A DNA stretch of 64,000 bases from Ulva prolifera (lineage: Eukaryota; Chlorophyta; Ulvophyceae; Ulvales; Ulvaceae): positions 5,566,522 to 5,630,521 of the forward strand of contig CM041202.1 of the NCBI GenBank assembly GCA_023078555.1, written 5' to 3'. The notes beneath the pieces are model-generated. The model saw only the letters and a program-made list of their open reading frames with translations, was not told where the DNA came from and made no database searches. Position numbers and translations under genes: made by a program. This document shows positions 27,982-63,436 of the stretch, in pieces (the stretch's first letter is position 1; every line of letters begins with the position of its first letter).

Positions 27982-30900
27982 ATGTCGGATGCACGTCACT
28001 CTGCCTCGACGCCCGGCTACGCAAGCGCCGAGCCCAGCGATCATGCGCAAGATCTCGCTCAGCGGTTGACGCTTGTCCATCCGCGTAATGGCATTGTGGA
28101 CGTGTCGGGCAGTTCATCTGCTCCCAGCCCGCTGTTGCAACACAGCCACGCAGCCTTACAGCACCCACATCACTCCGAAGACCGTACAAGGTCCAACCGC
28201 AAAGCTGCGGAGGCAGAGTGCATCAGGCTGGAGAAGCGGAGGGCGCGGAATCGTGCCTCGCAGCGAAAGGCCAGGCAAAAGCTAAGGGTGCGCATGTCCC
28301 GGACTGAAACACTGAAGAACGCAGCGCTCTCTGGGACACCATACAGCGCTTTCACAAGTCATATAGATAGCGATTTAGAGGAGTACATGGATGTGCGCAT
28401 GCTCTGCAGCTAAATACCGCTTCAGGCGTCTATTTGCTTGTGCCACCTGCTCATGCCCTCTTGCGAGCATCTACGACGCATCGGGCTTCTGAACAGTCTA
28501 GTGTGAGGTAATGTGACACTGCTTTCGTGGAGATGTGCGCATAACGCAAAGCACGCGTGAAGAGGGTAGAGGCTGAATGCTGGAGCTGACCTCGCGCGCA
28601 GCTCTGAAGCTCCCACACGCCCTAGCATTCCTGAAGCACTTGGGCTGGGCCGTGCATGGCAGTGGCAGAGCGCACGCATGCTGCGGTACAGCATTATCCT
28701 GCTCCAGCTGGACTGGTGTCCGAGTGTGCCCCTGCCTGGCGTTGACGCTGACAAGGACGACCTTCGTCAGAACGAACAGTGATGCCATGTACGTGCAAAC
28801 AGAACAGCGCCCTTTGGCCACAGTGGCTGCTAGACTGGTGCACCAAGCATCTGCGTCGCCCAGGAGACGTCAAGGTAGCAGTTCAGCTGTGTGGCTGGAG
28901 CATGTCCTTGTGCTTCACTCCGCAGAAGCATGTGTGCCCATGGAGTTTCAGTGTCTGAACATGCATCTGGCATTTGCTTGAAACATCAATTGTCCTTACC
29001 CATGCCAGGTGACAGGCTCACAGCGCTGCGTGAGTGTCAGTGTCTCCGTCTCGGACGGGCCAAGCCCTGAGCCCCTGCAGGCCCCTGTTCAACACACATG
29101 CGGATGATGAATGACCGGTGCACTGCCACTGCTCGTCACACCATTACTTCTATGCTTCTCCCAAGTGTGCTTCTCCAGAGCATGCTCAATCTGAACCGTT
29201 TTCAACAGGACGTCATACATGGATTGCTCATACATGGTGGTGGAGTGCCGGGTGAGTCTTAGTCTTACAAGGAGCACATTGCGACACTGTGGCTGCTCCC
29301 GCACCCCCACACCTGGTGAATCCTGCCCGTAGCCATACATATCTGACCCGACTGGTCACATGCCGGCTGTGAGCACCTGATGCCACCATTGCGCCGGCAT
29401 GACTGACACCACCCACGGCCGTGCAGGAAGAACGGGCCACGCTCCAGGGCCACCTGGCGCAGCTCCAGCAGCGCATCTCCCGCGGCCGCGCCGACCTCGC
29501 GAGCCTGCAGCGGCACCGCGTCGAGGCGCGCAAACGCCTCACGTCCGCGATCTCCGCCCTCGCGGCAGCCGGCTGCCCCCGCAGCGGCGGCAGCTGCCCT
29601 GGCAGCGACAGCAGCTGCGCCGGCACAGAACAACAACCCCCCCACCCTGTGACGCCCGCGCCACCTGCGCCACCTGTGGCCACACGGACGCGGCGGACTT
29701 CAGAACCCACCCGCGCCGCTCCCGCGTCTGCGTTGGCGATACGGACCGCGGACCCCCCCCGCACCAACGACGCGGCGCTTCCGCCCTCAATCACATCATT
29801 CCCCCACCACGCCAGCATCTCGTACGACGACATTCGGCACGCATCGGAGGCGGCGGCCGGCGCCGGCGACGGGCAGCGGCTGTGCATGCGGAAGGTGCTG
29901 GAACAGTGCATGTTCCGGAAGGCGTGGGCGGCGGGGTGGGCACCGGGGGAAGTGTGCTGGTTTGTGCAGACGCAGTACGAGGTGGCGCCGGGGGTGCCGC
30001 TGTCTTACAGCACCACCCTGAGCACGCCGGAGTGCATCGGGTCGATGGCGCTGCACTTTCTCGCCTCCTGCCTGGAATTTTCGCTGTTTGTGGCTATGGA
30101 TGACCACTCAGGTGCGGCCCGCAGCCGTGTCAGGTATCCTTGCAGCGTTTTCACGGCTACCATTAATGAAACATGCCTGGATATCCGGAAGGTCTAGGCA
30201 GGCGTTCTATGTGATCGGGCCTGACGACTTAGCTCTGGCCCCCAGCGAGTGCTTTGGCGTGGGGTGTGATGCTGCACAGAAGTTACTTCGACACACACCC
30301 CTGAACTGCAGTGTCAAGTGCTGTAAGCTCCTGCACATGCGCCTCTCCGCCATTGTGGTGTCTCTACAAACAAAGCGACTGCCGTCCGCTGCAGGAGCTG
30401 ACTACAAGGAGGCGCTTCTTGACCACCTGCCGGGTGTCAGCCTCGGCGTTGCCTCCAAGCTATCCCCACGGCCGGCGGCTCCACTCGCCCCTCGCGCGCC
30501 GCAGCAGGACAAACCGCACAGCACGCAGCACGCCTCGCCGCGGCGGCGGCACAAGGCCGCCAAGCGCAGCACGCTCCCGCCGCTGCATGGCAGCCCCCGG
30601 CCCTGGGCGGACGGCGCGGCCACATGCGATACCCCTGGCACTGACCCATTTCACGACTCGCGCCCGAGGGTGTCCCCGCCGGAGGGCGTGTCCAGGAGCA
30701 CAGGAAGCGGTGCCACAGAAGCGTCGCCGACTCCCAGCGGTGAGAAGGTGCCGGCCGGGGAACACTGGTCTGGGGCCGTGCGGTGCGGCGTGAACGCGAC
30801 GTGTGCTGCGCATGCTGCGCTCGCCGCAATCGTGCTGGCCGTGCAGCGCACGTTCCACGGCCACGTGTCTGTGGCGGAGCTGAAGTGGGCATTTAATCAG

Positions 30901-32663
30901 ACCGCGAGCCACCTGGACGACCTGCTGTTTGCGACGTTTGCGCCGTCGGTGACGGAGGGCGGCGGCCACGTGTCCGGTGTGCCGCTGGCGGCCGACACGG
31001 AGGCCACACGGTTCCACGGCGCGATCACCGAAGCGATGGCGTGCCTTCTGCCGGGAATGCACAAGCTGCTGCTGAAGCTGCCGGACTCGGCGGTGGAGGG
31101 CGCGGAGGTGTGTGCCTGCACTGCCGCTTGCATGCATGCGCACGGACATGCATGCTTCTCGACTTGCATGCATGTGCTCGTTGGTCTGGCATCAGAGCAA
31201 AACGGCACCTTGCAGGCGGCTGTCCGGTGATGGTGCTGCTGTTGCGTTCCCGGTGTTGTGTGCTGAGTCACCTTGCGATTGCCCTGCTCACGTTTTGTGC
31301 GGGTCGGCGTTGAGGACCCAGCCATTCCACCCATAACGGTGCTGCCATTGTGCACTGATGGCGCTTCAGGGTGGTATCTGTTGCAAGGATACAGCCGGAG
31401 AGCCCGGTAGCCACGCCAGGGCAATGCACAAGCACACCAGAGCCACCAAGCACCCCGGAACCTGACTCACGCCGACCTGAATTTGACCAGGGTGGTGTAA
31501 GAATTTGACCAGGGTGCATGTGCAGGTGGAGAAGGGCCCCACGCCAGGGTCCGGCGGCGGCGCCGCACCCCAGCACCCGAATCCGCAACAGGCGAGTCCG
31601 GCACGGGCCCCCACGGCCACAACGGCCGGGGATCTGCAGCGGCACGCCGACGTCATCATGACGCTGTACAGCAGCGGCCACCTGCTGGTGTTGAAGGATG
31701 CGAACCGCATCGTCCGCAACATGTCGGTGAATGGCACCAGGACGATGATCCAGCAGTTCGAGGTGCGCCAGGGTGTATGCGAGCCTCCCGCTGCTGATGT
31801 GTTCGCGGGTCCTACGGCGCTGGTGGCTCACGGCAGGGCACAAAGGTTCTGGTCGTGGCAGCGCATGTGTTGGGCCGCTGCATTGCTGTTGTCGCCGCGT
31901 ACCCAAACCGCGGGGCGTGTTTGTTCCACATCACCGCGGCATCCTGCTGGCGATTCAGGTGCTTGAGTCCCAGACAATGCTGGAACTACAACCCATATGA
32001 GCACCCCCTGTCCTTTCATTCTGGAAACAAGCACACAGCATGTGACTGCTGCCCTCCATGCCACAGGTGGAGAACATGCACATGCGGGTGTACCGGTCCC
32101 TCCAGCTCAGCGAGGCGCAGCGCGAGGCGATGCGCGGAGTGTGGCTTGAGTGGGAGAAAAATCGCCGCTGCATCGACACCCCTGTAGCCACTGCGCGGGC
32201 CTGCCTCGCCGCCCTCCCCCCATGCATCCCCCTGCCCCCGGCCTTCGCGCAGCACGTCTTTGCCGTCGCAGACGGCACCGTCCTCCTCTCAGAACTGCAT
32301 AGGGTGGGCCCATGCGTGTTGGAGCACCCGGGGGGCCCCGCGCCGTGGTTGCGCGAGCCCGTCGTGCCGCTGCTCGGTGCCGCGCAAGAGTTCTCGGCGC
32401 ACGCCGCCGAGGCGCTGCGGCTGCTGTGGTACGTGCAGGAGGCCGAGATAGGGGTGACGAACGCACTCATCTGTGAGCGGCTGCAGCCGGGCCGCGTGCT
32501 CAGCCTGCAGCAGCAGCTGCGGCTGTACTCCTGCCACCTGCTGTTCCTCGGCGCGCCATTCGTCGATTTCCTCGCGCTGTGTCAGCACGCGCTGACTCAT
32601 CAGCGGCGCAAGTGCCTGTTCCGTGCCCTGGACGACCCCTATGGCTCGCCGATGCGGCACTGA
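27982..32663 (+). CDS. bZIP transcription factor A (diverged family member), 845 aa
   Basis: Five exons splice in phase: 27982-28287, 29427-30111, 30395-31107, 31526-31762 and 32067-32663. The basic region (residues about 82-102, 'RRARNRASQRKARQKLR') ends at the exon 1 donor. Exon 2 supplies 'EERATLQGHLAQLQQRI', giving the canonical N-x7-R-x9-L spacing and leucines at zipper positions 1, 2 and 4. Conserved block 2 (about 221-325) contains 'VCWFVQTQYEVAPGVPLSYS'; block 3 (exon 3) contains 'CGVNATCAAHAAL'. Block 4 crosses exons 4 and 5 ('MSVNGTRTMIQQFE' then 'VENMHMRVYRSLQLSEAQRE') and ends in Leu-rich helices. It should act in the nucleus as a dimer; the targets are unknown. Intron 2 carries a diverged relative of the hAT-like MITE. 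The first in-frame ATG is used as start. It lacks the Cys/His cluster of the three tandem paralogues. Confidence 0.8.
30174..30230. mobile_element. Diverged fragment related to the hAT-like MITE
   Basis: Within intron 2 of bZIP gene A, CCTGGATATCCGGAAGG followed by TTCTATGTGATCGGGCCTGA closely matches the inner part of the intact MITE at 9759-9860. Its terminal repeats are not preserved, so the ends are approximate. Confidence 0.6.
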
Positions 32664-37394
<4,731 letters not shown>

Positions 37395-37484: not shown

Positions 37485-37488
<4 letters not shown>

Positions 37489-39252: not shown

Positions 39253-42200
39253 ATGTTGCGGATGGATTCCGGGCTGTTGTTCGATGTCATGCGCCCCAAC
39301 GCAACTTTCGCCAGCTTTGGCCAATGCCCAGCGCAAGAGCCCTGGACACCGCCGAATTTCAGCTGTGGAGGCCATGAGGACAGTCTGGCTGAGACTTATA
39401 ACGTTCTGAAGGAGCTAGATAGCGGTGGATCAAGTCCCATGGCTCCGAAGAAGCAAGAGCCTGCGGGGCAGACCTCCTCAATGGACAGCCCTGCTCAGGC
39501 TCCGAAGGCACCGCCACCGAAAACAAGGAGGAGAAGCTATAGCGAGGCCGATAGACTTGAAAGGAGACGCGCGCGAAATCGAGCTGCGCAGGCGAGGTTT
39601 CGCCAGAAACAGAGGGTGCGATGGCCTCATATGACTAGCACCACTTCAAGTTGCAGCCCCACTTCTACCCACCTACCCGCGGCGCTATGGCGTAACCCCG
39701 CAAGCAGTTCTTGCTAGGAAGAACGCTGTCATCCGCAGGATACCGTGTGCTGCACGCATCTGGGCTGGCCCTCATCCCGGGTGGTGTTGCGACGGCAGCC
39801 CGGTTGACAAAACGTCGAGTTTGCGAATGCATCAGACGTTGGACACGAGACATAGCCCCGCGCTGGCGCTGTCATGATCACTCCATCTGGTACCTATGAC
39901 AGAGTGTTGCTGCTTTCCATAGCCTGCACGCTGCAGTATCGAGCGTGTGGACAGCATACTAGTAGCCACGCCACGGCCGTTGATCCACGTCAAGGACCAC
40001 CCACGCGTGGGGACGCGTGCCACGCCGCATGTACACAACCCTAATACCCTTGGCAGCACCAGCGGATCGAGCCTCAGCGCCGCAATATGCAGGAGACAAA
40101 GTGCCCACGATTGTTATACTATTTCACATAACGAGTCATATAGAATATACGTGTACCTGAACGTCACTTGGCACAGCAATACAGGTACACAGCGTTAACT
40201 AGCATGCATGGCACATCTTGATGGATGACTCATGACCACACGTTGCACTCATCCAAACTTGGCCGTGCCGGGGGTACACCTATCCAGTACGGTATACCGC
40301 GGTATGTCTACTTCATGCTAGCTTCAGCGTATCTGATCTGCACAGACATCTGAGCTGACAAGTCTCATGCGTGCAAGTGGGTTGATTGAGATTTCTTGAG
40401 ATTCTTGTTGTCCCTTGCCAATTGTCCAGCCGAGGTGAAACTGTGCTGCAGGGCGAAGCGTTTGCCCCGTGCACCACAACCTGCACTCACTGCTTCGTCA
40501 TGTTTGGATACTATCCAGTAGTACGTGCCTGCAGGGCCCCGAACACATGTTTCATATGAAACATGAACAGGACCACCAGCCCAAGCATAAACACCCCCTG
40601 GACAACACTGGACCGCGAAACGCTGCAGTCTATCTGAAAAAATCCATGCAAATCCATGAACATGTAGTTGCCTTTTATCTTTGTCTACCATGGCAGTTCG
40701 TTGGATGCATGAAGTGATCACAACGCGATGATGATTCCCTCATGTGCCACCAGCCTGATGTCTTCCTGTCTGGCATCCCCATGCAAGCTTTACTTGCCAG
40801 ACTGACAGACAATCATTCATGCTCTGCATGTTCATCCATGCCATGTGCATCCATGCTCTGCATATTAAATTCTGCTGTTTGGGGACCCTATGCTGTTGCA
40901 GGGAGCCGTACATCACCACTGGCATCATGATGGCCTCCCCGCCCATTGGATCAGGGGATACTTATCACCTTAGCAACGTGTGTGAAGCCCTCCAGAAACC
41001 TATATCTAGGCCCTTTGCGGCAGTCCAGTGCTGCAGCTGGTGGTCATACCATTTAGTTGCCACTGCCGTGGCCTGTCTTTTGGCATATCTCCTTCAAAAT
41101 TTTCATTTGCACGCCACTTGCAGCATAATTGCATCAGACAGACAATCTGGATCACACCATGTATGCTTTTTGGTCACACCGCATGTACATGCAGATGTCA
41201 CACCGCTATGATGCAGGGGAAGTCTCTGCCTTGTGGGGCTAGCTAGGCCCTATAGGGGGCCTGTCACATGTGAGGGTAGGTGTAGGCCTGTGATCGAATC
41301 AGGCAGCCTCACTGGCAGGCAGCCGCCTAGGCCGTCTTGCCATCTTACACCCAGTTACGCTCAGTCGCATTCGTGTGTTAACAGCTGATAGGCTCTCTCC
41401 CCAAATGCATGATGCACGCGGAATGCATGATGAGCCGGGCTTTGGGCATCGAGGCGGGTCGGGGCGCATCGCGTGCATCAGCCGAGCATCCTCTATCACA
41501 GCTCGATGAATACAGCTTGACCACAGCGACCGGCAACCGTGGTGGCTGTGCGCAGGATGCGCGCTCCGTGCTCGAGAATCAGATCTTTGCGCGGCAGCGC
41601 ACGATCTCGTCCATGCGTGCGACCGCCGCGAGCCTGCAGCAGCAGAACGCTGCGGCTCTGGAGCGCCTGAACGCAGCCAACACAGCGCTCGCCGCGGCTG
41701 CCGCGGATCGGCCCCCCCGTGCACCCGCCCGCAGCTCCCCAGCCAACACCCTATGCTCCAACGCGCCCCGGGCCACGGACGGCCACGGCGCCTCTCTGTC
41801 GCGCATATACAGTCCCGCATCCTGCCCCTTGGCCACAGACGCCCCCAACGCCCCCCTCGCACAATCACCCGTCGATCTCCCCCCATTGCAACAATCCCCT
41901 CTTGGAGCTCCCGCAGAGCCGGAGCAGTACACACAGCACGCGCTCCCCGCGGGCCGCCCGCCGCCACGCCACCGCGCTGTTCTGCGGCGCAGCACAGCAC
42001 GCAGCAGCACGCGGCCCGAGCCGTCGACGCTCCCGCCGCCAATCTCGTCGTTTCCGCGCTGCGACGGCATCTCGTACCGGGACGTTCTGCAAGCCTCTGC
42101 GGCGCCCGGGCCGTTTGTGGACTTCTCGCACGCGAGCCTGCGGTCGCTGTTGGGCGCGTGCAAGGCGAAGAAGGCCGCCGCGGCCCACGCGCTGCCCGCC

Positions 42201-45036
42201 GACGTCTGCTGGTTCCTGCTCTCGGAGTATGAGGTCGCGCCGGGGCTGCCGCTGTCGTACAGCTCCACGCTGAGCTCTCCGGAGTGTGTCGCGGCGCTGT
42301 CGATTCACTTCCTGCTGCTGACGTTTGAGTTTGCGCTCTGCACCGCGGCGGGTGACCATGGTGCGTGCTGCAGCCTGTGCCACATCTCGGGTGGTGCTGG
42401 GGTACTTGAATGGCAAGTGCAATGACGCTCGAAAAATGATGGCCAGCAAGATGCTTTACCGCAGCCGATGTACTCTTGGCTGGCCATTCCACAGCGTTCA
42501 GGGACATTGTAGGTTCCCAGCACACCTCTTAACAGTTTCTGAGCGATTGAGGAGTACCTATAGCTGGGAACCTCAGCTCCTGCATGCAAATTACTTCTGC
42601 ATCCAAAGTCGGAGGCCGACCTGTGCCTGCAGGCGTCACAGAGGCCATGCATACACCGGAGTCTCCGCCGCACGGTCAGCCGCCGGCAAACCCATATGCA
42701 GGGGGCATGCACCACACGCAAGCATCGACTTCACCCCGCGACCGGGACTCCTGGGCTGCCGCACTCACAACAGCCAGAGGCGTCAAGCGCAGCAGCAGCC
42801 ACGGCGAGCCGGCGGCCCGCCACCCACACCCGGGCCACGAGCCTCTAGAGGATGTGCCCTCCGTACGCATGCGCAGCATCAGCCAGGACGGCGGCCCCCC
42901 GCAAGCGCCTGTGACCGCGTCCCTCCGGAGCGCCGCGTCGGCGGCTGCAGCCATGCATGCTGCAGTCGCACACCTGGCAGACGAGCTTCCCTCGTCCCCT
43001 CCCGCCCCGTACGCCAGCGTAGATATGCATGTGCCAGTGGGGGGTGATGCGAGAGGCTACATGCTTCAGCCGCCGCCAACCGAGCCGCTCCGCTGGAGTG
43101 GCCAGGTGACCTGTGGCGTCGCCCAGCTGACCGACGCGCGAGCGGCCGTCCGCACATGCGTGCGCGCGGTCGTTGCGGCATTCAGCGCGATCGTGCCGCC
43201 GGCCGCGATGCGCCGGCTGTGCATCTCCAACGCTGAGCACATCGAGGAGCTGCTGCATGCATTTCCGACGGAGGCGGCCGACATGCATGGCGCGGAGGAG
43301 GAGATGCATGACGTGGAGGGGTTTGCGTACCACACGGCCGTGACCGCGGCGCTGCAGTTTGTGCTTGGGGAGCTGCGGGGTGGCATGCGGCACATGGCCG
43401 GCCTGATCAATGTCATGGTGCGCCACCCATATATATGCATGTGTATCCCCCCCCCTAGCACCGGGCGTAGTGTTGTGTTTTTACCTGGTAAAAAGGTTTC
43501 AGTGCATCCATGACAGACAGTTTGTGACCACCGCTCAGGCTATGTTTACACCTGACAGAACACGTACTGCCTGAAATATGCGTCTACATGTTGCTGGACG
43601 GGCCGATGCAGTTCTAGGTCCGAGTCATTGGCGGTGGGAGGCGATGGCAGTGGCGTGGTTGTGATCACACATCATGATGTGCAGGCGGGAGTGCCATCAC
43701 AGGGAGGTGTCGGTGGCCCCTCGGGCCCGGCGGCCGTGCAGAGGCGTGGCTTCATCGCGCTGGCATCCTACAGCATGTGCTACTCGCTCACCCTCACCGA
43801 CGCGGCGCGAGTGATGCGTCGGCTCGCCGTGAACGGCACGATACCGCTCATGAAGAACTACGAGGTGCGTCGTGGCTGCGACCGTGCAACAGCGATCGTA
43901 TGCATGGGCGGTGCATGAAGTTTGTGGAAACAATTGCAAGGAAATCTGCAACAACAAGGGCGTGGAATGAGGCTGGCCTGCACAGTGTGTGCGGCGCACT
44001 CCGAGTCACACGCTGCGTGCTGCCCACCCACACGCTGCGTGCTGCGTACCCACATGCTGCGTACACGTGTGCTGTCCACTTCCACGTTAAACACCTGAGC
44101 AAGTGAGCATGGTGAATTTGTAGCATTTGAACTTGCACGGCACACGTGGCAGCGTGCTCTGCAGCTGCCATTTCCGGCGGTGGGTGTTAGGGGGAGCACA
44201 GCCTGTGGGCCAAGCAGCCGCAGGATGTAGCAGCACTGTGTCTGTACGCCGCCCTGGAGCATATGCATGAGTCAGGACTCTTGTATGGCCCTGATGTTCT
44301 CAGTGTAAGAGAATCAAGAGTCTGTCGAAGTCGAGATATGCGTCGCACCGACACAACACTCCGCCATGGACCCTCACCTCAGCCACTCATGCATGCGCCT
44401 GTGCAGGTGGACAACCTCCACATCCGCATGTACCGCATGCTGCACCCGGCGCCGCCCCAACGCGTCGCCCTCGCGGCCCACTGGCACCTCTGGGAGCGCC
44501 GCCGCCGCACCCTTGACGCCCCCATGGCCACCGCCCGCGGCCTCCTCTCCTCCCTCCCCCAGTTCATCCCCATCCCCGCATCCTTCGCGCGCCGCATCTT
44601 CAACATCGCCGACGGCGCCGCCCCCCCGCCGCAGCACGCGCAGCACGCGCAGCACGAGTTCGCGCCGTGGGACCAGCAGCCGGTCGTGCCGCTGCTCGGC
44701 GCCGCGGCGGACGTGACGGCCACCGCCGACGAGGCGGCGCGCCTGCTCTCCTACGTCCTTGCGTCGGTGTCACTGGTGAGCGTCGAGATGAAGGGCATTC
44801 GGCTGCAGCCGGGGCAGCTGCTGAGCCTCGGGCAGCTGTTGCGGCTGCACTCCTGCCACCTGCTGAACCGCAAGGCACCCCCCGTCGATTTCATGGGGCT
44901 CTGCCAGCTTGCCGCGATGCAGATGGCTTGGGAGGAGCGGCGGGCGCGGGAGTGGAAAGCCCTGCAATCGAACATGGGGGAGGATCTCGCGCCCCCGCAG
45001 ACTCTTGGCCAGTGGGGCCGCGGAGGAGGCATGTAA
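39253..45036 (+). CDS. bZIP transcription factor B (diverged family member), 920 aa
   Basis: Five exons join in phase to 2763 nt: 39253-39615, 41556-42360, 42633-43417, 43685-43864 and 44407-45036. Exon 1 ends in the basic region 'RRRARNRAAQARFRQKQR', of the fungal Pap1/Yap1-like NRxAQxxFR type. Exon 2 begins 'DARSVLENQIFARQ', restoring N-x7-R-x9-L. Block 2 includes 'CWFLLSEYEVAPGLPLSYSS'; block 3 in exon 3 starts 'CGVAQLTDARAAVRTCV' and ends near 'AYHTAVTAALQFV'. Block 4 spans exons 4 and 5 ('RLAVNGTIPLMKNYE' then 'VDNLHIRMYRMLHPAPPQR'). Blocks 2 and 3 are split by a phase-1 intron, as in gene A but not in the three tandem copies. The 1.9-kb first intron is the longest of the family here. 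Nuclear DNA-binding dimer is the expected role; targets are not known. Confidence 0.8.
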
Positions 45037-47583: not shown

Positions 47584-50500
47584 ATGGAAATGTTGATGCG
47601 CAACATGTGGGAGTGCATAGATGACCACTGTGCGTACGACAACCCCGGCTCGGCAGGCAGCGCACCAGAACAAACACAAGACCGTAGGAGATCTACAAAG
47701 ACTCATGAAGAGCGGCTAGATCGAACCCGAGAGCGTAACCGGAACGCTCAAAGGCGATATAGAGAAAAGCAAAAGGTGTAGCCCTCTTCCAAAACCGTCG
47801 TTGCCGCGAATGCGCTAGCCAGTCTTTAAATTTCAGCAGCAATTTCTACTAGTATAAGCTTGGATCGGTGCAGCTGCGTTCACGCCAAACCTCGCCTTTT
47901 CTTAAAGCGTTTGCCTGAACGGGCTGCACGCATGGCAGCGGCAACTGCCCACCGGTCGCATTTGACGTACAAAACCTCCATCATGATGCCTGCAACTCTG
48001 GCGTAGGGCACTGTCGGTGTTGTAGACACACGGGAGACGCCTGTGTGTGCAGCAGCAGCAGGAGCAGCAGATCCACGACCTTCAACTTCGCATGGCCAAG
48101 GCAACAGCCGCACGGGCCAAGGCAACAGCCGCACGGGACCAGCTGAACGACCAGCGGCACACTCTGCTCAATCGCCTCATGTCATCACCCCACAGCTCTG
48201 CTTCTCCATGTTCACACGAAGCCACACCTAGTCCAACTCTCGCCCACCCACCTGCAACGGCGCCAACTCCTGCAGCGGCGGCAGCTCCAGCAACGCAGCA
48301 GCTCTGCGCTCCTGCCCACGTCCACTTCAGCACATGCGCAGGGGCGTCTCGCCCCACACATGACACCTGCCTGGTCCGGCCCCGCCACACCAGCGCAGAC
48401 CTGTACACCCGCCACCGTCTCCTACCACCTCCGATGTCATCCTTCCGCCACTGCGCCGCCATCTCCTACGACGACTTCCTCAAAGCCTCCGGAAGCTCCT
48501 CCCGCATCATCGACCTCTCGTGCATGGAGTTCATGGACATCCTGCAGTCCGCACAGGCTGCGATTGCACAGAGGCTCGGCTGCAGCCAGGCAGACATCTG
48601 CTGGGTGGTACAGACACACTACGAGGTCGCCCCGGGCGTGCCGCTGTCCTACTCGTCCAGCCTCAGCTCCCCGGAGTGTGTCGCGTCCCTGGTCCTCCAC
48701 AGCATCTTTGCCCAGCTGGAGGTGGCGGTGCTTTCTGCGGAAAGCGAGTCAGATGCCTCCCAGCGCTTCCCCCCGCTCTTCCGCATGTCCACACCAGCCG
48801 CTGCCACGTCGGCAGAGTCCACAGGGGACCCTGAGCCGATCAGCAAGTTCCCGCGCCGTGAGGCGCCGCGTGTGCACACCAGCTCAGCGGCATCGGCAAG
48901 AACGGTGGACGCGAGCCGCACTCATGAGGACCATGCATGTGAACTTCTCGATGACCTCCGCCTGGGTGGGAGCGTTGGACCGGACGGGGCGGTTCCTCGT
49001 GGAGATGCCGGAGACATGAAGGCCTTCATGCATGAGGTCGACAGCCTACCCTTGGATGAGTGGCTTGAGGACGTCTTTGCTGGTGACGCGGCCATGTGTC
49101 GGGAGGACATGCGCATCGGCGGTCGCTGTGTTGATGCGGTGGTCGAGGGGGGTGAAGGAGGCAACGACACGGCATATGCCTCAGAGCCGCTGTTCGTCCG
49201 CTGCGGGGTGGACGGCGTGGCTGATGGGCGCATGGCCGTCCGGGCTGTGATGCAGCAGATCGTGCGCAGCATAACACAGCACAGCGCGGCGGACGGGGAG
49301 ACAATCACCGAGCTGATACGGTGCTGCGGGAACATCGCAGCAGATGTTGTGGCAGAGTTCGACGCGGGAAGCACAGCCGGTGCCGCGGACGGCGCTGTGG
49401 AAGGGGGTGTCTCAGGCAGTGCGGGGGCTGCCGAGAACGCGCATGCCTCGGCACGGAGCAACGGCAGCTCCCAGCCTCAGCACGAGTGCGAGCGTGCGGG
49501 TGAGATTGCGCCCATACCCCAGCCGATGCCACCGGGTGTGGTCCGGGGGGCCGAGGCTGTCGCGGCCGGTGTTGAGCAGTTTCAAGTGCAGTGCTGCGTG
49601 GACGGCAAGGAGGACACGGTTGCTGGTGTCAGTCACAGAGCGGAGGACAACAGCCATGGTGATGGTGAAGACGAGGGGGACGACGATGGCAGTGGAGAAC
49701 AAGACGACGCTGCGTCGGACGCGTACCACGAGACTGTGACGAGGACGCTGTGTGCCATGCTGCGTGCTGTGCGCGACGTGTGCTATGAAGTCAGCGAGAC
49801 GTGGCCCACTGTGGCGCAGGTGCGGCCGCCTCGATGCTGTCTCCTGCCATGCCCAGTGACTGCTGGTGTTGACATGACTTTGTGGGTTTGGGGGCCTTGA
49901 CGCTGCCAGCGGGCCCTTGCCTGTGGACTGATATACCAACGTTGGGCCTGCATGCTTCTCTCTCCGCTCGTCAAGCATGCAGGCCCAACACGGGCCGATG
50001 AAACACGGGCTGCGCTCGCACTTGATCAGGGTCGTGCTTCTATAGTAGCTATTGCATTAACTTGGGTGCCTGGCAGCCTCGCACGACGGCAGCTCATCGA
50101 TGTCGTCACCCATGAGCAGAGCTTCCTGTTTCCAGGCGGCGGAGGCGCCTGTGCCGGCGGCGGAGGCTGAGGAGCTCCGGCAGGAGAGGGTGCATCTCAC
50201 GCTGTCTGAGATCTGCACCACCCACGCCATGTCAACGCGGGATGCAGGCCGCATGACGCGCGGCATGGCCGTCAACAACATGTCAAACTCTCGGAAGCAG
50301 TTCGAGGTGCGCTCCTCTCCGCCCCGATCGTTGGAACCTATTTCCATCTGTGCAGGAGATACCATGTGTGCATGCATGTGTGATGTTTGCCGGTGTGCTT
50401 GTGTGGGTGCCAGCTGTTGCGCTTTTTCAGTCTGCGACGCCGTGGCTGCCGCGGCAGATGCATGACGGTGCCACCATGCCGCCGCCACGTCGCAGGAGGC

Positions 50501-51566
50501 CTCTCTGTGTGGCACATGCACTCCTCCTCGCTGCGTACCTCAGTGTATGATAGCAAAGTTAGTTCCCACAGTTGCTGCTGACCTTGCGGTCGTGAAGAAG
50601 TATGGAACTGCATGTCATGCCTGCCCACCAATCGATCCCTGGTACGAAAGATCCAGCTGTCCAGCTGTCCAGCACCTTTCCGTGCACTGGTCCAACAACA
50701 AGGGCTCCATCACGAGCCGGGATGTAGCGGCATGCACTGCTACACCTCCCTCCGGCCACGGTTCTACATCTGCGGCTTTGCGCCTGTCCTGCCGCCCTGC
50801 CGCATGCAGCCGAGCGCCCAGCCAGGCCCACTTGGCGCAATGCATGCAGGTGGAGAATGCCCACATCCGCTACTACCGGCAGCTGGCCCTGTCGGCGGAG
50901 CAGCGCGCCCAGATGGCTGCGTGGTGGCACTCCTGGCTCAGAAACAAGGGTACCCTTGACACCTCGGCCGCTGCCGCCCGGCGCGCGCTGAACGCGCTGC
51001 CGGACACCCTGCCCCTCCCGCAAAGCCACCTCAGCCACATCTGCCACGTGGCAGAAGGGGCCATGCCTCCGCGTACTTGTGCCGCCTGCGCCGCTGCCAC
51101 GCTCTGTGCCTCCCCGGGACCGTGCAGCTGCACACACGGCATGCATGAGCAACATGCATGTCACGCCGCAGCGTCGGAGAGTGGGGCGGTAGGTATGCAT
51201 GTTGCTGGGGTCCAGGTCGCCAGTGGGTGCGCGGGCTGTGGCGGGTCGGTCGGGGATGATGCGGGCGGCGTGCCGCTGGGGGCGGACGCGGGGGGCATGT
51301 GTCGTGCCGCGGAGGCTGTGCGGCTTCTGCGGGGCATGCAGGATGCGGACGGGGCACTGTCGGTGTCCGCGGCGGTAATGCATCAGCAGCCCGGGGCCCT
51401 GCTGGATGCGGATCAACTGGCGTACATCTGTCGCAAGAACGTGCTGCAAGGGTGCCCGATGATCGACAGCCTCGTGCTGTGCCAGCTGGCGGCCACGCAG
51501 CTGCGGCGGCAGGAGCTGTACCGCTGGCCGGCCATGCTGGGCGCGCCGCTGCCAGAGCGCATGTGA
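47584..51566 (+). CDS. bZIP transcription factor C (tandem paralogue 1), 948 aa
   Basis: Four exons join in phase to 2847 nt: 47584-47775, 48053-49819, 50136-50306 and 50850-51566. The basic region 'RTRERNRNAQRRYREKQK' closes exon 1 (64 aa). Exon 2 opens 'QQQEQQIHDLQLR' and contains 'AKATAAR' twice, an exact 21-bp duplication. Unlike the other four genes, zipper position 1 (N-x7-R-x9-) is Q, because three residues are missing relative to D and E. Block 2 ('ADICWVVQTHYEVAPGVPLS') and block 3 ('LFVRCGVDGVADGRMAVRAV') share exon 2 without an intron. Between them are acidic patches ('HACELLDDLR', 'LDEWLEDVFAGD'), possible activation motifs. An Asp/Glu tract precedes 'AYHETVTRTLCAMLRAVRDV'. The last exon carries a Cys/His-rich linker ('CAACAAAT', 'CSCTHGMHEQHAC', 'CAGCG') before the conserved C-terminus 'CQLAATQLRRQELYRW'. 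The start is the first ATG of the exon. Confidence 0.8.
49941..49989. ncRNA. Intronic hairpin, perfect 17-bp stem (candidate structured RNA)
   Basis: In intron 2 of gene C, GTTGGGCCTGCATGCTT (49941-49957) pairs perfectly with 49973-49989 around a 15-nt loop. It may be a small inverted-repeat element or a miRNA-type precursor; the stem is short for the latter. The structure is seen directly; the RNA identity is a guess. Confidence 0.3.
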
Positions 51567-52232: not shown

Positions 52233-55200
52233 ATGATGATGCGTGACCCGGGGGACCGGACAGACGACTACTGTGCGCGCAACACTCTGGGCTCTGCAAG
52301 CAGCACACCAGAAAAGACACGCGACCGTAGAAAGACATCAAAGACTGATGCAGAACGGCTGCGTCGAGCTAGAGAGCGCAACAGGAACGCTCAGAGGCGA
52401 TACAGAGAACGGCTGAAGGTATGCACTGCGTACTGTGCAGCCCTCGTCCATCAACGACGTTTCCGTGAATCATTGATGCACCAGTCACTTTACCAGCTTC
52501 AGCAGGATTCCCTAGCAGAACGCTTGCAGTTGGCTGCATCAACACCAATTCTCACCAAGTCGCGTCCCAGAACTTTTGGCAGCCTCTAGCATGTATATAG
52601 AGGCTGCCAAAAACCCTGGGACGCATGACAGCTGAAAATGCCCACCATGCGCCCCGGTCCCACTTTCCGCAACACCAGATGTCACGGCATCGGCATCGTC
52701 ATTTGTGCGACTTTGGCTTCAGGCCACGTTCTGTACCATGCGCACACGGGAGGCGACTGCTTGTGCAGACAGAACAAGACAGCCTGGAGCAGCAGATCGC
52801 CGACCTCGCACTGCGCAAGGCTGAAGCAACTGCCGCACGGGATCGGCTGCACAGCGAACGGCACGCCCTGCTCGACCGGATCATGGCCCCGTCGTCAACT
52901 CGAAGACCTGCACCACAAGCATGTCCACGCGAAGCCACACCTTGCCCAGCCCTAGCACACGCAGCTGTGGCACTGCCGATGCCTCACCCCACACAACACA
53001 CCTCCCTCGTCCGGCCCCGCCACACCAGCGCAGACCTCTACACCCACCGCCCCCTCCGACCTCCTCCAGTCTCGTCCTTCCGCCACTGCGCCGCCATCTC
53101 CTACGACGACCTGCTCAAAGCTTCCGGCAGCTCGTCCCGCATGATCGACCTCTCACGCATGGGGTTCATGGACGTCGTGCAAGCTGCACAGACTACGATC
53201 GCACAGGGGCTCGGCTGCAGCCAGGCGGACATCTGCTTGGTGGTGCAGACACTCTATGAGGTCGCCCCGGGCGTGCCGCTGTCATACACATCCTTCCTCA
53301 GCTCCCCACATTGTGTTGGGTCCTTAGTCCTCCACAGCATCTTCGCGCGGCTGGAGACTGCGGTTCTTTCTGTGCATAGCGAGTCCGATGACCTAGGGTG
53401 TGGGCCCCGAGCTACCAAACGGCTGTTCACACCAGAAGCCACCATGTCGGCGGACCCATCAGAGGCGCCAGGCGCGAGCTCCAAGCGCGCATGCCACGAT
53501 GCCATGCATTCGCAGCCCCGCTCGGCAGCTTGCATGCATGGGAACCATGCATATGTGCATCTTCGTGGCAGTGCCACTGGAGGCCCTGCAGAGCCGATGT
53601 CCGTCCGCTGCGGGCTAAACGGCGTGGCTGATGGCCAAGTGGCGGTCCGGGCGGTGATGCAGCAGTTCGTGCGCAGCATAGCCCAGCACAGCACGGCGGA
53701 CGGGGCGACGGTGGCGGCTCTCATGCGGGCTTGCGGGGACATTGCAGCAGATGTTGTGGAAATGTATGACGCGACAAGCACGCCCGGCGCCGCTGCTGGC
53801 ACTGTGGAAGGGGTGGGGGAGGGCGGGCCGGGCGGTGCCGAGGCTGCTCCGTGTGCTGCGCATTCTGCGGCCCCTGCTGGCGACGGCAGCCCCCGGCCAG
53901 CGCACGAGCGCGGGCATGCGGGTCAGGGTGCGAATCGGCCCCGGCCGATCCCGCCGCGTGCGGACCAGAGCATCGGCGCTGCCGAGATTGATGTCGGTGA
54001 ATTTCAGAGGCATTGCCGCGTCAGCAGCCGGGGAGACGGGGCTGCCTGTAACGGCGCTGCGGAGGGGCCAGCGGCCGATGGACACACAGCAGCAAGTAGA
54101 GCAGCTGATAATTGCAAAGCGACAGGATCTAGACTGGTCGAAGGTGATGTTTGCGGCGGCGGCGATGCACGTTGGGAAGAAGACGTGGCAGAGTCGGATG
54201 CATACCAGCAGGCTGTGACGAGGACGCTGTGTGCCGTGCTGCGTGCTGCGCGCGACGTGTGCTACGAGGTCAGCGAGGGATGGCAGGCTGTGCTCCCTCC
54301 TGGCAGGTCCCGGCAGGTGCGGCCGCCTCCGTGCTAGATCATGTCCTCGGCCGCACTCGTGTGGTGGCCTGAGGTTAAAAGCACTGTCGGCGGGAGCACA
54401 ATAGGTGGCCTCAACGATGGCAGCGGGGCGGCCACGTGTTTGAATTGAGCCTACAGGTCTGGCAACAATGGTCGTAGAAGCCGCGAAAAGTTTTCCCCGT
54501 TTTATTTTCGCACTTCATCTGGGTGATATGTCGACGTCGCTGAAGTACAGGAATTCCTCTGGTGCATGACCATCTTTGTTTCATTTCTGCCCAATATCCC
54601 CCGAGTGAGCAGTGTTGGTAGTTTGCAGGCGGCAGAGGAATATCTGCCGGCGGCTGTGGCTGACAACTCGAGGCAAGAACAGGTTCACATGTTGCTGACG
54701 GAAGTCAGCACCAGCCACGCCATGGCGATGCGTGATGCTGGCCGGGTGATGTGCAGTCTCGGAGTGAATCAGATCCCGGTGCTCACCCAGCAGTACGAGG
54801 TACGCTCCTTGCCTCCCAAGCGAATCCATGCACCGAATCTAGAAGGGGATGCTCATGCGCTCATCTGTGCACACACAACTGCAGCCTGCGGATCTGTGCC
54901 GTTTGCTCAGCGCGTGATAGGTCTTCTGAGCGTGGTGGGTGTTGCGTGCGTGCGTGTCTGGGTGTGTGCTTGGTCTGCTTACTTCTTTCGCGGTGCTGCC
55001 CGCCTTACCTCCTTTATGCTTGCAACACAGCTGCGTTGTTTCCTGGTGTGCGTGGGTGGCCGCCAGCTGTGATGCGGTGTGATGTGACCACCCCGTGGCT
55101 GCCGCATTGCGTGCATGATGGTGCCGCCCAGGCAAAACAACGCTCTCGTGAGAACAAGATGCACACCTTCTGCTGAGTCTCCACGCTCCGTCATCCCTCG

Positions 55201-56275
55201 GGTGTTGCGGAGCTGGCGTATGTCAGAAAGCATACCATGTGCCCCCCGCTTGCCACCTCACGCCCCCTGCCTCACCGCTTACGGCCAGCAACGGCATGCA
55301 TCTCTTATATCTATGCTATAGCATGGTGATGCCATGCATGTGCATCAAGTCCTTCAGACCCTCAGATTTGGACACAGCAGCCAGTGCTGCCTTCGCTCAG
55401 GCCTATGTCTAGCCCTGTGCCAGTGGTCTGAATCACACCACCTGCCTCGTACAGCTACAATTGGATTTAATGTGCGCGGTGCGGCGCCTACCCTTCCGAC
55501 CTCAGCCACTTGCATGCTGAGCTCCAGGCCAGGACAACATGGCGAAATCCGTGCAGATCGAGAACGCCCACGTCCTCTTCTATCGCGAGCTGGCCCTGTC
55601 AGTGGAGCAGCGCGCCCAGATGGCCGCGTGGTGGCACTCCTGGCTCGGACACAAGGGGGCTCTTGACGCCTCGGCCGCTGCCGCTCGCCGCGCGCTGGAT
55701 GCACTGCCGCACTCCTTGCCCCTACCGACAAGCCACCTCAGCCACATCTGCGGGGTGGCTAAAGGGGCCGCGGTGCCGCGCGTGTGCGCCACCTGCGCCG
55801 AGGCCCTGCACCGCGCAGCGCCGGGCCCGCGCGGCTGCTCAGGCGGTATGCATGAGCGACGTGCATGTAGTTCCGCAGCAGTGCTGGTGGGGGAGGCTGC
55901 ATGTTTTCATGTTGGAGGGGGGAAGCTGGCGACGTCTGCGGCGGCTGCGGCGGGCCGGCCGTCAATAATCCAGTTGAAGCGCCGCTGGGGGGCGACGCAT
56001 ACAGCATGTGTCTCGCTGCGGAGGCTGTGCGGCTGCTGCGGGGCATGCAGGACGCGGACGGCGCGCTGGCGGTGTCTGCGGTGACCATTCACCTGCAGCC
56101 GGGGGCGCTGCTGGATGCGTGCCAGCTAGCGTGGATTTGCCGCAAGACCCTGCTGCACGGCTGCCCGATGATCGACCACCTCGTGCTGTGCCAGCTGGCG
56201 GCGACGCAGCTGCGGCGGCAGGACCTGTGCCGCTGGCCGGCCGTGCTGGGGGCGCCGCTGCCTCAGCGCATGTGA
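52233..56275 (+). CDS. bZIP transcription factor D (tandem paralogue 2), frameshifted last exon
   Basis: Exons 52233-52418, 52769-54316, 54629-54799 and 55557 onward. Joining exon 1 ('RARERNRNAQRRYRERLK') to exon 2 ('TEQDSLEQQIADLALRK') gives the canonical N-x7-R-x9-L zipper spacing. Block 2 ('ADICLVVQTLYEVAPGVPLS'), block 3 ('MSVRCGLNGVADGQVAVRAV' and 'AYQQAVTRTLCAVLRAARDV') and block 4 ('MCSLGVNQIPVLTQQYE' then 'IENAHVLFYRELALSVEQRA') are intact. In the last exon the frame is lost at a G6 run (55917-55922). As written, the protein stops at 56084 (810 aa). The family C-terminus ('CQLAATQLRRQDLCRW') continues one base out of frame to a stop at 56273-56275. One missing G explains it, so a sequencing error or recent inactivation are both possible. 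The acidic stretch between blocks 2 and 3 found in C and E is absent (about 65 residues). Confidence 0.75.
52562..52624. ncRNA. Long imperfect hairpin in intron 1 of gene D
   Basis: The 27-nt arm at 52562-52588 (GCGTCCCAG...TTTTGGCAGCCTCTA) pairs with 52598-52624 except for a 3-by-3 internal mismatch; the loop is 9 nt. The length and single internal bulge resemble a small-RNA precursor, and equally a tiny foldback element. Confidence 0.35.
54955..55025 (+). mobile_element. LINE 3'-end fragment in intron 3 of gene D
   Basis: TCTGCTTACTTCTTTCGCGG followed by TGCTGCCCGCCTTACCTCCT and a TTGCAACAC ending matches the family seen inverted at 7.4, 33.9 and 35.4 kb. Confidence 0.5.
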
Positions 56276-57663: not shown

Positions 57664-57699
57664 AAGAACCAACACAGGAGCACACATACATGCATACAT

Positions 57700-58814: not shown

Positions 58815-59222
58815 GCTCGAGCTGTCAGGATGATGGCCGAAGTAAGCGCTCACTCCAGCAGTTTCGATTCAGTGTCAACAGCGGCACACGGGCAACACGC
58901 ATGAATGTCACCAACTCCATCGTGAACTCGTGCTGCAAAGTATTTATGCTACAATGTACCAGTGCTGCAATATGCGGGCCTTGCTAATGGTGATGGCCAT
59001 CGGCACTGATCCGGCATTATTCAGCTGTGCGGTGATCATGTCATAGCGTACATCTCCCCAGATGCGGTTTAATCAGCACAGCTGCTGTTAGACAAGCTGT
59101 GTCTACATTTATCCACGACGCGGCATCGAAGGCATACAGAGATGTGGCGTTTTTGAACTGCATGCGCGCAGCCCCTGTGACAGTCGGAAAGAGGGAGCAT
59201 TCTACAAATACAACAAAATTTA
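58815..59222 (+). promoter_or_regulatory. Conserved upstream region of bZIP gene E
   Basis: GAGCTGTCAGGATGATGGCC precedes the core GTAAGCGCTCACTCCAGC (58842-58859), 363 bp before the start codon. The same order is seen before C (GAGCTGACAGGATGATGGCC then the core). Confidence 0.7.
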
Positions 59223-62200
59223 ATGTCAACCGGTATGGGCTGCTTCGGGGAGACGCAGGCGTTGATGCATAATATGTGGGACCGCTTCGACGACACTTGT
59301 GCGCACGACAAGCTGCGCTCTGTTGGCAACGCATCGCCAGAGATACATGACCGTAGAAAGACTACAAAGACTTATGAACAGCGGTTAAATCGAACCAGAG
59401 AGCGTAATCGGAACGCTCAGAGGCGGTACAGAGAAAGACAAAAGGTATGCAGCGCTCTTCCAGATACGACGTTGCCACGGATGCACTGCACCGGTCGAAC
59501 GCCTTGTACGAAAGCAACAACGATATTACACGTTGGAGCGGGTGCAGCTGTGTCTACGTCAAGCCTCACCAGGCCGCATGGCAGGGAGCTCGCAGCGTCG
59601 TCGTCTCACCTCCATTCAGTGGTAGAGGCGAATGCCCACGATGCGCATGTGTCGCATAAACCATTCATCACAGGCATCCTCGCAAAGTAATGTTTCGCTG
59701 GACATGGGCATGATCACAGTTTGGGATCACGCGAAGGACCCGCTTGTGCAGATCCAGCAAGACAGCTTAGAGCAGCAGATTCACGACCTGCAGCTGCGCA
59801 AAGCCAAGGCTGTTGCCGCACGGGACCAGCTGCACAGCCAACGGCACAGCCTGCTCGACCGGATCATGTCCTCAACGTCGCCGCATGGCCCGGCCTCTCC
59901 TGCATGCTCTCACGAAGCCACAGCGTGTCAAACAATCGCCCACCCAGCTGCAGCGGCGCCAACGCCAGCAGCGCAGCAGCTCCTACGTCCAGCCCACCTC
60001 CCCCACAGCGCATACGCAGGAGCATCTTGCCACACACCTCATCACACCTCCGCCCTCGTCCGGCCCCGCCACACCAGCGCGGACCTGTACACCCACTGCC
60101 CCCTCCTGCCTCCCGCAATCTCCTCCTTCCGCCACTGCGCCGCCATCTCCTACGACGACTTTCTTAAAGCCTCCGGCAGCTCCTCCCGCATCATCGACCT
60201 CTCCAAAATGACGTTCGTGGACGTCGTGCAGTCCGCACAGACTGCGATTGCGCAGAGGCTCGGCTGCACCCAGGCGGACATCTGTTGGGTTGTCCAGACG
60301 CACTACGAGGTCGCCCCGGGCGTGCCGCTGTCATACACATCCAGCCTCAGCTCCCCGGAGTGTGTCGCGTCCTTGGTGCTCCACAATGTCTTTGCAAAGC
60401 TGGAGGCGGCAGTGCTTTCCGCAAACAGTGAGTCGGATGCCCCCGGGGGTGGGTTCCGCGCGCTCACCCGCCTCTTCACCCCGGACGCCGCCACATCAGT
60501 AGCCTCCTCGGAGGTGCCGGACGCGGGCTATAAGCGCGCATGCCGCGAAGCTCCGCACTCCAGCTCAGCAGGCGCGGCGGGCAGGCTTGCTGCAAGATAC
60601 ATGCATGACGACCATGCATGTGGGCTGCTCGATGACCTACGCATCGATTTGCTCGACGAACTGGACGGCCAGCCTGGCTGCGGTGATCCCGGAGATATGA
60701 AGCGATGTTGGCACGAGTCTCACGATGTGCATTGCGGTGAGTGGCTTAAGGACGTCAAGGCCGGTGGCGCGGCCATGAGTCGGGACGATGTGCACACTGA
60801 TGGCCGCTACACGTGTGCTGCTTCGGCATGCGAGGGGGGTGCGCGTGAGGCAGGCGATGCCAGTGCAGGCGCCGCTGAGCCGCTGTTTGTTCGCTGCGGG
60901 CTGACCGGTGTGGCTGATGGGCTCACGGCGGTCCGGGCGGTGATGCAGCAGGTCGTGCGCAGCATAGCGCAGCACAGCGCGGCGGACGACGAGACGGCGG
61001 CCAAGCTGATACGATGCTGCGGCGACATGGCAGCCGATTTCGTGGACAAGTTTGACGCCACAAGCCCGCCTGCTGCCACAGCTGGCGCGGTCGCAGGGGC
61101 GGGCGGAATCTCCAGTAGAGATGAGGCTGCTGCGTGTGATGCGCATGCTGCAGCCCCGAGCCGCGACAGTGTCCAGCGTGAGCAAGAGTGCAAGGTTGCG
61201 GGCGAGAGCGTAAATGAACCCGGAACGATGCCCCCAGGGGCGACTTGGAGAAGCACGGGCGCAGGGGTCGACGTCGGGGAGTTCCAACGGCAGTGCTGTG
61301 TGGGCGGCAAGGCAGACAGCGCTGCCGTGGAGATCGCTGCGGCGACGCCGTCGGCTGATGCACCCAGAGCCAGAGGACACAAGCACATCGATTGTGATGA
61401 TGGGGGAAACAACGATGACCACGCTGTTGATGATGAAGAGGTGGCAGAGGCGGACGCTTACCACGACACGGTGACGAGCACGCTCTGCGCCGTGCTGCGT
61501 GCTTCGCGTGATGTGTGCTACGAGGTCAGCGACGGGTGGCGCGCCGGAACAGCGCAGGTGTGGCCGCCCTGACACAATAGTCTCAGTGCTGAATCGATGC
61601 CCTGATGTAGGCTACGCCTCGCTTTCAAAGGGACTTCGTAAAGAGGCATCAGCTGACCTCAACGCAGGCACACGGATCACGTACGAGATTTCAGCCTCTC
61701 GGGTCGACAGGAACCCAGAGACTGGACGCCTCAGCACTTGATCGGGTGCTCCAATTAATGGGGTTCCTGTAGTGTTGTATGTCAATGGGTGCATGGGTTT
61801 CTCATGCAGAGCCGCCGCGCGGCCCCCGCGCTCAGAGTCCCCTGCTTGCAGGCGTCAGGGGTGCCTCTGCCGGCGGCTATGGCTGAGGAGCGCCGGCATG
61901 ACAGGGTGCATCGCGCGCTGACGGAAGTCTGCACGGGCCTCGCCATGCCGATGCGGGATGCAGCGCGGGTGATGTGTAGCTTGGCAATGAACCAAATCTC
62001 AGTGCTCCTCAAGCAGTTCGAGGTGCGCTATCCGCCGCTCCAGCGGAATCTCAGATTTCTCTCATCTAGAAGGAGACTCTTCTGAAGTGAAGCGTGCGCT
62101 CACAGGCGCGGTGTCTGCTAACGTGCTCTTGCGAATGCCAGCTTGTTTGCTGTTGTGGACTGCAACCCCACGTCAGCCACGTTTGTGGATGCATCCCGGT

Positions 62201-63436
62201 GCCCCCTCAGCTAGCCACTCGACACCCCTCTGATTCACAAAGCATCGATTGTTGCTGAAGGTCCACGCTCGATCACCCCAAAGCTGTCGCTGAGCTGTCT
62301 TGATTAATATGTACTTGTGGAACCTCCATGACATGTTCGCCACCTCAGGGCATCCTGCCATGCCGCGCAGTGTGAGGACTCAACTCGCCGCCTCGCACGC
62401 ACTACCTAGTCTCGTGTCAGCCGGTCCAAGACTTTGTGGACAGCATCAACGGGGGCCCCCCCTATCAGCACATGTACATCTACCAGCGCTGTGCTCTCCC
62501 GCGGCCTGTCCTCACAAGCACACCTCCCACAGCCCACCTCCGACACTCAAACACAACACTGTTTGTCACACAAACTGATAGGTGTGTCATAATCCTGTGG
62601 ATTGACAATCTCTTGATCTTTAGACAGTATGCCATTTGTGTGGTTGGCGCCTTTTATGACTGCGGGCGCCTGCATGGCGAGCGCCCAGCCAGGCCCACCC
62701 TGCACGATGCATGCAGGTCGAGAACGCCCACGTCCACTTCTACCGCCAACTGGCCCTGTCAGTGGAGCAGCGCGCCCAGATGGCCGAGTGGTGGCACTCC
62801 TGGCTCGGACACAAGGGCGCCCTCGGGGCCTCCGCCGCTGCCGCTCGGCACGCACTGGACTCGCTACCGGACACCTTGCCCCTCCCCCAAAGCCACCTCA
62901 GCCACATCTGCCGGGTGGCAGAAGGGGCTGCGCTAGCGCGCACGTGCGCCGCCTGCGCCCAGGCCACGCGCCGCGCTTCGCTGAAACCGTGCGCTTGCTC
63001 AATCACTATGCATGAGAGCCATGCATGTGGTGCCACACTTGGGTCGGGGGATGGGGCTGTGGGTATGCATTCCGGGGGGGTGGAGGCCGCCACCTGCTGC
63101 GCAGGCTGTGGCGATCACGTCGCCGACGGCACATGTGGGGCGCCGTTAGGGGCTGACGCGGGGGGGATGTGTAGCGCCGCGGAGGCTGTGCGGCTGCTGC
63201 GGGGCATGCAGGACGTGGACGGCGCGCTGTCGGTGTCGGCGGTGGCGATGCACCTGCAGCCTGGGGCGCTGCTGGGCGCGGGTCAGCTGGCGTGGATCGC
63301 ACGCAAGACCCTGCTGCACGGCTGCCCGATGATCGACCACCTCGTGCTGTGCCAGCTGGCGGCCACACAGCTACGGCGGCAGGAGATGTGGCGCTGGCCG
63401 GCCGTGCTGGGCGCGCCGCTGCCAGAGCGCATGTGA
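59223..63436 (+). CDS. bZIP transcription factor E (tandem paralogue 3), 972 aa
   Basis: Four exons join in phase to 2919 nt: 59223-59444, 59752-61557, 61852-62022 and 62717-63436. Exon 1 (74 aa) ends in 'RTRERNRNAQRRYRERQK'; exon 2 begins 'IQQDSLEQQIHDLQLRKAKA'. This gives N-x7-R-x9-L with zipper positions L, L, A, L, L. Block 2 ('ADICWVVQTHYEVAPGVPLS') covers about residues 190-290. Acidic patches ('HACGLLDDLRIDLLDELDG', 'GEWLKDV') precede block 3 ('LFVRCGLTGVADGLTAVRAV'; 'DHAVDDEEVAEADAYHDTV'). Block 4 crosses exons 3 and 4 ('MCSLAMNQISVLLKQFE', 'VENAHVHFYRQLALSVEQRA'). The last exon has the Cys/His linker ('CAACAQAT', 'CACSITMHESHAC', 'CAGCG') and an intact C-terminus ending 'APLPERM'. 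This is the cleanest of the three tandem copies and the best reference for the family here. Block names are mine; I do not recognise them as catalogued domains. Confidence 0.85.

Follow-up and report, generated by a model that had tools for sequence, protein, structure and literature searches.

Basic leucine zipper (bZIP) factors of the fungal Yap1/Pap1 type combine the basic-region signature N-x-x-A-Q-x-x-F-R with cysteine-rich redox domains and control by nuclear export, and TGA-type plant bZIP factors carry a DOG1 domain after the zipper. A further system has been described in green algae. According to the accessible sections of PMC4067076, the SAK1 domain is a mostly helical segment of ~150 amino acids (aa) that is C-terminal in SAK1 and occurs in 37 chlorophyte proteins, with more distant forms in land plants and 14 proteins listed for Chlamydomonas; a possible bZIP was noted in 13 of the 37, seven of these falling below Pfam significance. 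The same sections report that the domain resembles a CnrR-type metal-resistance protein by PHYRE, and that SAK1 is found mainly in the cytosol, carries no annotated domain, responds to singlet oxygen by induction and phosphorylation, and is required for acclimation (PMC4067076). C. reinhardtii has 20 bZIP genes, as stated in the accessible part of PMC4827209. Here, we analyze an array of large putative bZIP genes in a 64,000-nucleotide stretch of Ulva prolifera DNA (the window; contig C7, positions 5,566,522–5,630,521, in a genome of 88.9 Mb and 44 contigs; gene coordinates below are window positions) and compare it with these systems.

Judged from sequence, the family to which these genes belong is genuine, a greatly expanded group of bZIP proteins whose middle block is new. 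We consider it reasonably probable that this is a green-alga (probably chlorophyte) family of at least 48 loci, whose members would bind DNA as dimers and would use two conserved parts that follow the zipper, block 2 and block 4, for regulation. The family appears to have grown in good part by tandem duplication. A literature search that mostly missed subscription papers and bioRxiv preprints found no published description of such a family. Long conserved sequence after a bZIP had been called rare in the original prediction, which was made from the window's letters; it was already known in green algae from the SAK1-domain proteins, as far as the available sections describe them (PMC4067076).

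Ten same-strand genes share one order of parts

The window contains five homologous genes, g1–g5, all on the + strand, which run from 27982 (ATG of g1) to 63436 (stop of g5) and match each other block by block (BLASTP among open frames, E down to 2e-136). Both ends agree exactly with the original prediction, as do the strand and the homology. The predicted five-member cluster proved to be part of a larger array, however, which continues past the window to ~5,659,790 on C7 and comprises ten genes in ~65 kb on a single strand. Exon models were built from shared open frames, with start codons chosen among in-frame ATGs. All introns of the g1–g5 models have GT-AG borders; g1 and g2 consist of five exons each (intron phases 0, 1, 0, 0) and g3–g5 of four (phases 0, 0, 0). 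The order of parts is basic region, intron, zipper, block 2, middle block, and block 4. The gene models are as follows.

g1, + strand: 27982–28287, 29427–30111, 30395–31107, 31526–31762, 32067–32663 (including stop); five exons, four GT-AG introns, no inner stop, 845 aa
g2, + strand: 39253–39615, 41556–42360, 42633–43417, 43685–43864, 44407–45036 (including stop); five exons, four GT-AG introns, no inner stop, 920 aa; start is one of three in-frame ATGs
g3, + strand: 47584–47775, 48053–49819, 50136–50306, 50850–51566 (including stop); four exons, three GT-AG introns, no inner stop, 948 aa
g4, + strand: 52233–52418, 52769–54316, 54629–54799, 55557–56275; four exons, three GT-AG introns, open to 55931, frame broken at ~55931 in the last exon, which was aligned with g3
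g5, + strand: 59235–59444, 59752–61557, 61852–62022, 62717–63436 (including stop); four exons, three GT-AG introns, no inner stop, 968 aa

The predicted size of about 800–970 aa holds for g1, g2, g3, and g5 (lengths exclude the stop). In g4, a 1-bp gap in the last exon interrupts the reading frame, which the original prediction had not noted. Compared to g3, this exon has a 3-base insertion and the 1-base gap, and as assembled it reaches a stop at 56082. Beyond the break, the g4 sequence retains 80–85% identity to g3 and g5 in its own frame, and the event is therefore either recent or an assembly error.

Four recurring phrases had been read as signs of a fixed architecture. All are present, but as variants rather than fixed strings: YEVAPGVPLSY is exact in four of the five genes (g2 has YEVAPGLPLSY); VRCGV is exact in g1 and g3, with VRCGL in g4 and g5 and VTCGV in g2; QFEVENxH, which spans an intron, is exact in g1, g3, and g5, with QYEIENAH in g4 and NYEVDNLH in g2; and LxxQRxxM occurs in four of five, g2 having PAPPQRVAL.

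The basic region is joined to a zipper in register

In every gene of the array (10/10), the basic region lies on a separate exon and is followed at the same place by a phase-0 GT-AG intron of 251–1940 bases. After splicing, the register N-x7-R-x9-L is exact in eight of the ten genes, and g8 has V in place of L, giving nine that fit N-x7-R-x9-[L/V]. The d positions of the zipper read LLALL in g4, g5, g6, g7, and g9 (half of the array) and VLALL in g8, with weaker series in g1 (LLGLA), g2 (LRMLA), and g10 (LLSLQ). The zipper of g3 contains a perfect 21-bp repeat (48094–48137, 2.1 copies) that adds exactly one heptad (AKATAAR). The basic regions in the window are the following.

28216–28287, + strand: g1, NRASQRKAR; spliced segment matches bZIP_1 at E 0.011, under cut-off and barely ahead of coiled-coil families
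39544–39615, + strand: g2, NRAAQARFR; best PDB chain Pap1, E 0.0032
47704–47775, + strand: g3, NRNAQRRYR; read from exon
52347–52418, + strand: g4, NRNAQRRYR; read from exon
59373–59444, + strand: g5, NRNAQRRYR; spliced segment matches bZIP_1 at E 4.5e-4, under cut-off

Either bZIP_1 or bZIP_2 was the top Pfam family for all five spliced segments, each time under the cut-off. We file the family as bZIP on the strength of register and heptads, as the Pfam cut-off is a detection threshold and not a defining property. When PF00170 (bZIP_1) was run against the genome exon by exon in six frames, five places scored over the cut-off, none of them in the block-2 family; a bZIP count based on this Pfam model would thus give five and miss a family about ten times larger.

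The large proteins might not exist at all, if the basic region and the part with blocks 2–4 were separate genes or exons assembled by chance. The introns of 1.1–1.9 kb between basic region and zipper in g1 and g2 are the kind of gap that would allow this, but the constant phase-0 intron and the register kept in nine of ten genes speak against it, as does the recurrence of a basic region upstream and block 4 downstream of block 2 on several contigs, described below. We judge this explanation to be extremely improbable. Transcripts that assign the basic region and the later exons to different genes had been named beforehand as one finding that would refute the original prediction; the kept register suggests that no such division exists.

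The same combination recurs across the genome

Run on the whole genome and combined, three block-2 queries detected at least 48 loci with E ≤ 1e-3, plus three with weaker scores (E 0.004–0.006). This list was compiled by hand from the three query outputs with only the best candidates scored, and is a lower bound. The 51 loci are spread over contigs C1, C2, C4, C6, C7, C8, and C9 (C6 and C9 by weak loci only). The array of the window, with its ten genes, is the largest, and groups of 2–6 loci occur elsewhere. A block-4 query found 41 places at E ≤ 10 across the genome, and 36 of the 51 block-2 loci have such a place on the same strand within 4 kb downstream, compared to a chance expectation of ~0.05 (distances are approximate on the − strand). 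An upstream search of the best 30 of the 51 loci found a basic region in 25: 17 by pattern within 1.5 kb, g1 and g2 from the window, five in a further 2.5–3 kb, and locus L015 by a looser listing. Taken with the spliced register, the downstream block 4 bears out the single architecture and the bZIP identity that had been proposed, and the array, the smaller groups, and the well-supported g3–g9 clade described below do the same for expansion by tandem duplication. Of the other five of the best 30 loci, four yielded no basic region and one an uncertain fragment.

Three of those five (L031, L033, and L035, on C2 at ~11.82–11.86 Mb) form a distinct block-2 subgroup with support 1.0, and no basic region was found in the 4–4.5 kb upstream of them; this subgroup may have lost the bZIP.

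Block 2 is a conserved segment with two cysteines

Block 2 is ~100 aa long and lies at the following positions, each defined by family alignments.

29760–30107, + strand: g1 block 2
42012–42359, + strand: g2 block 2
48404–48754, + strand: g3 block 2
53042–53389, + strand: g4 block 2
60088–60423, + strand: g5 block 2; also structure model

One cysteine is present in 30 of 30 block-2 sequences and a second in 29, as are one W, one G, one L, and one S. The original prediction could name no domain in blocks 2–4. This holds for block 2, in which no Pfam family exceeded the cut-off (0/30 sequences), and for the middle block, in which none did so in the eight exons given; block 4, by contrast, may have SAK1 relatives. 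No PDB sequence matched block 2 at E ≤ 10, and no relative was confirmed among viral or prokaryotic contigs, the range over which the suggested lineage-specific nature of the family was examined. Structure prediction had been suggested for blocks 2 and 4. For block 2 of g5, AlphaFold2 gave a model with a mean predicted local distance difference test (pLDDT) score of 67.7 and the order strand-helix-helix-strand-strand-helix, and a structural search with this model returned no convincing match. We predict for block 2 an alpha/beta domain in which two cysteines are almost invariant. The domain could be new; the model is too weak for the claim of a new fold.

These cysteines raise the question of whether the proteins are one-component redox sensors resembling fungal Yap1 and Pap1, in which oxidation of the two block-2 cysteines would switch activity. 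The conservation of both residues is compatible with this idea, as is the basic region, in which N-x-x-A-Q-x-x-[F/Y]-R occurs in four of the five window genes (with the exact F in g2, Y in g3, g4, and g5, and A at this position in g1), and among PDB chains Pap1 matches g2 best. SAK1, moreover, works in singlet-oxygen acclimation (PMC4067076, accessible sections). Conserved cysteines can also be structural, however, and the g5 bZIP segment has ATF-4 as its best PDB chain (E 0.079), with Pap1 third (E 0.49). Pap1 is therefore the best chain for only one of the two segments, g2 and g5, and a relationship to Yap1/Pap1 is not established. We regard redox sensing of this kind as unlikely.

Block 4 resembles the SAK1 domain in description

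Block 4 is a C-terminal segment of ~180–240 aa, with an L-[S/T]-x-x-[Q/D]-[R/K] motif close to its start in many members. Its positions, from family alignments, are given below.

32067–32660, + strand: g1 block 4 (SAK1-like candidate)
44407–45033, + strand: g2 block 4
50850–51563, + strand: g3 block 4
55557–56275, + strand: g4 block 4, out of frame past ~55931
62717–63433, + strand: g5 block 4; also structure model

The model of g5 block 4 is helical but poor, with a mean pLDDT of 46.1. LTXXQ (PF07813; Spy/CpxP) is a bacterial periplasmic family, and one block-4 member, L046, scores just over its curated cut-off (24.6 bits; cut-off 24.3), with weaker matches in L053 (E 4.8e-4) and L043 (E 0.025). 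A whole-genome LTXXQ scan found three places, two of which are block-4 exons. The third, at C2:3309105–3309266 (+ strand, E 0.09), does not coincide with any block-4 locus and might represent a different type of SAK1-like gene.

Its C-terminal position, probably helical make-up, and weak resemblance to LTXXQ, together with the weak bZIPs, lead us to propose a SAK1-type identity for block 4. As described in the accessible sections of PMC4067076, SAK1-domain proteins share with the Ulva family possible bZIPs below threshold and a domain, C-terminal in SAK1, that is mostly helical there and probably helical in block 4; the gene numbers of several Chlamydomonas members are nearly consecutive, as inferred from the identifiers in Table 8 of that paper. 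The two groups differ in size, with at least 48 block-2 loci here compared to 14 SAK1-domain proteins in Chlamydomonas, and in block 2, which those sections of the SAK1 description do not mention (PMC4067076).

One alternative is that these are plant bZIPs of the TGA type whose DOG1 domain, downstream of the zipper, has diverged. The gross layout would be the same, a bZIP and then a C-terminal region that is probably helical. DOG1, however, was undetectable here: a genome scan was empty up to E 10, and hhalign assigned block 4 a probability of 0.1% against TGA3, no better than the 0.2% obtained with reversed TGA3. The identification of block 4 as DOG1 is thus unsupported, and the chance that these genes are of the TGA type is very slim.

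Selection and duplication history

We calculated ratios of nonsynonymous to synonymous substitution (dN/dS) as pooled pairwise Nei-Gojobori values among g3–g9, in which the pairs are not independent; g4 was excluded from both block-4 values because of its frame break. The ratio was lowest in the basic region (0.15), followed by block 2 (0.22) and block 4 (0.33 for the first 80 codons and 0.34 for the last 90 codons). Values were 0.43 for the VRCG block, 0.44 for the zipper, 0.49 for block D, and 0.55 for the end of the middle block, and ranged from 0.52 to 0.71 in the linkers. Pooled dS was 0.36–0.89, indicating that the g3–g9 copies are not very recent.

These ratios bear on whether the array consists mostly of decaying, functionless duplicates. 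The frame break in g4 and the lost zipper register in g3 are what decay would produce. Against this, the other six genes of the g3–g9 set are open in the exon stretches examined (for the second exon of g8, up to its first stop), and dN/dS is 0.15–0.34 in the basic region, block 2, and the ends of block 4. General decay is, in our estimation, very unlikely.

In a block-2 tree of 30 loci, g3–g9 form one clade with support 1.0. Other clades comprise the three C2 genes near 11.8 Mb (1.0), a C8 pair (0.95), and g1 with g2 (0.87), and the C1 1.4-Mb and C7 5.77-Mb groups fall together (0.93). The g10 gene stands apart from the rest of its own array, which argues that the array did not arise in a single burst.

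Proposed function of the family

In the reading that we favor, a bZIP family with regulatory blocks 2 and 4, the short zipper would mediate dimerization and the basic region N-x-x-[A/S]-Q-x-x-x-R, which in g2–g5 comes close to the fungal Yap1/Pap1 signature, would bind DNA, and block 2 and the probably helical, SAK1-like block 4 would couple DNA binding to a signal. Stress signaling is the most likely field given the role of SAK1 in singlet-oxygen acclimation, and by this analogy photo-oxidative stress, or some other stress from the environment, would be the likeliest signal. The linkers and zippers change quickly, which may give individual array members different signals or targets.

Several results weigh against this reading. 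The Pfam bZIP cut-off was reached by none of four full models and none of five segments, the full g1 model had no bZIP match at E ≤ 1, and the g3 zipper, alone among the ten, is out of bZIP register (d positions QRAAQ). No basic region was found upstream of L026, L031, L033, or L035, and L030 has an uncertain fragment. In three block-2 loci, block 4 occurs only at 4–10 kb, one of these sharing its place with a neighbor, and 12 of the 51 have no block-4 place within 10.5 kb. LTXXQ matches just three of 24 block-4 members at E ≤ 1, leaving 21 without a match; all three places in the genome scan were under the cut-off (best E 0.02); and CSLinker matches two block-4 members (best E 0.0019). PF13801, which we take to be the family of CnrX/CnrR-type metal-binding proteins, had no match to block 4 and two places in the genome, neither in the family. 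Because block 4 is likened to SAK1 by description alone and the CnrR-type family gave no match, our confidence in the favored reading is slightly reduced.

If the SAK1 link is true, it would tie the question of how a chloroplast singlet-oxygen signal reaches nuclear genes in green algae, where SAK1 has no annotated DNA-binding domain, to many likely DNA-binding proteins that share this kind of domain, and block 2 would be a new conserved block and a candidate sensor. A bolder version, which we think doubtful, holds that block 2 is a new sensor domain with its two cysteines as the likely switch, and that the genome encodes ~50 receptor-like one-component regulators (bZIP, sensor, and SAK1-like effector) that escape transcription-factor surveys based on Pfam, an expansion comparable to that of nuclear receptors in nematodes.

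Other features of the window and genome

Chlorophyll a/b-binding protein was found at 38 places in the genome, one of them very like LHCII chains of the PDB, which marks the genome as that of a green-lineage alga. In the window, a row of + strand open frames at 16708–21263 resembles the Pfam families RNHCP (E 0.0026) and DUF4218 (E 0.0047) weakly and below threshold, and is possibly a transposon remnant. A 344-bp unit is repeated 6.2 times with 98% match at 21315–23443. Between g1 and g2, an (AC)n run of ~639 units (35794–37070, 99% match) has extreme strand skew and produces spurious long open frames in all six frames.

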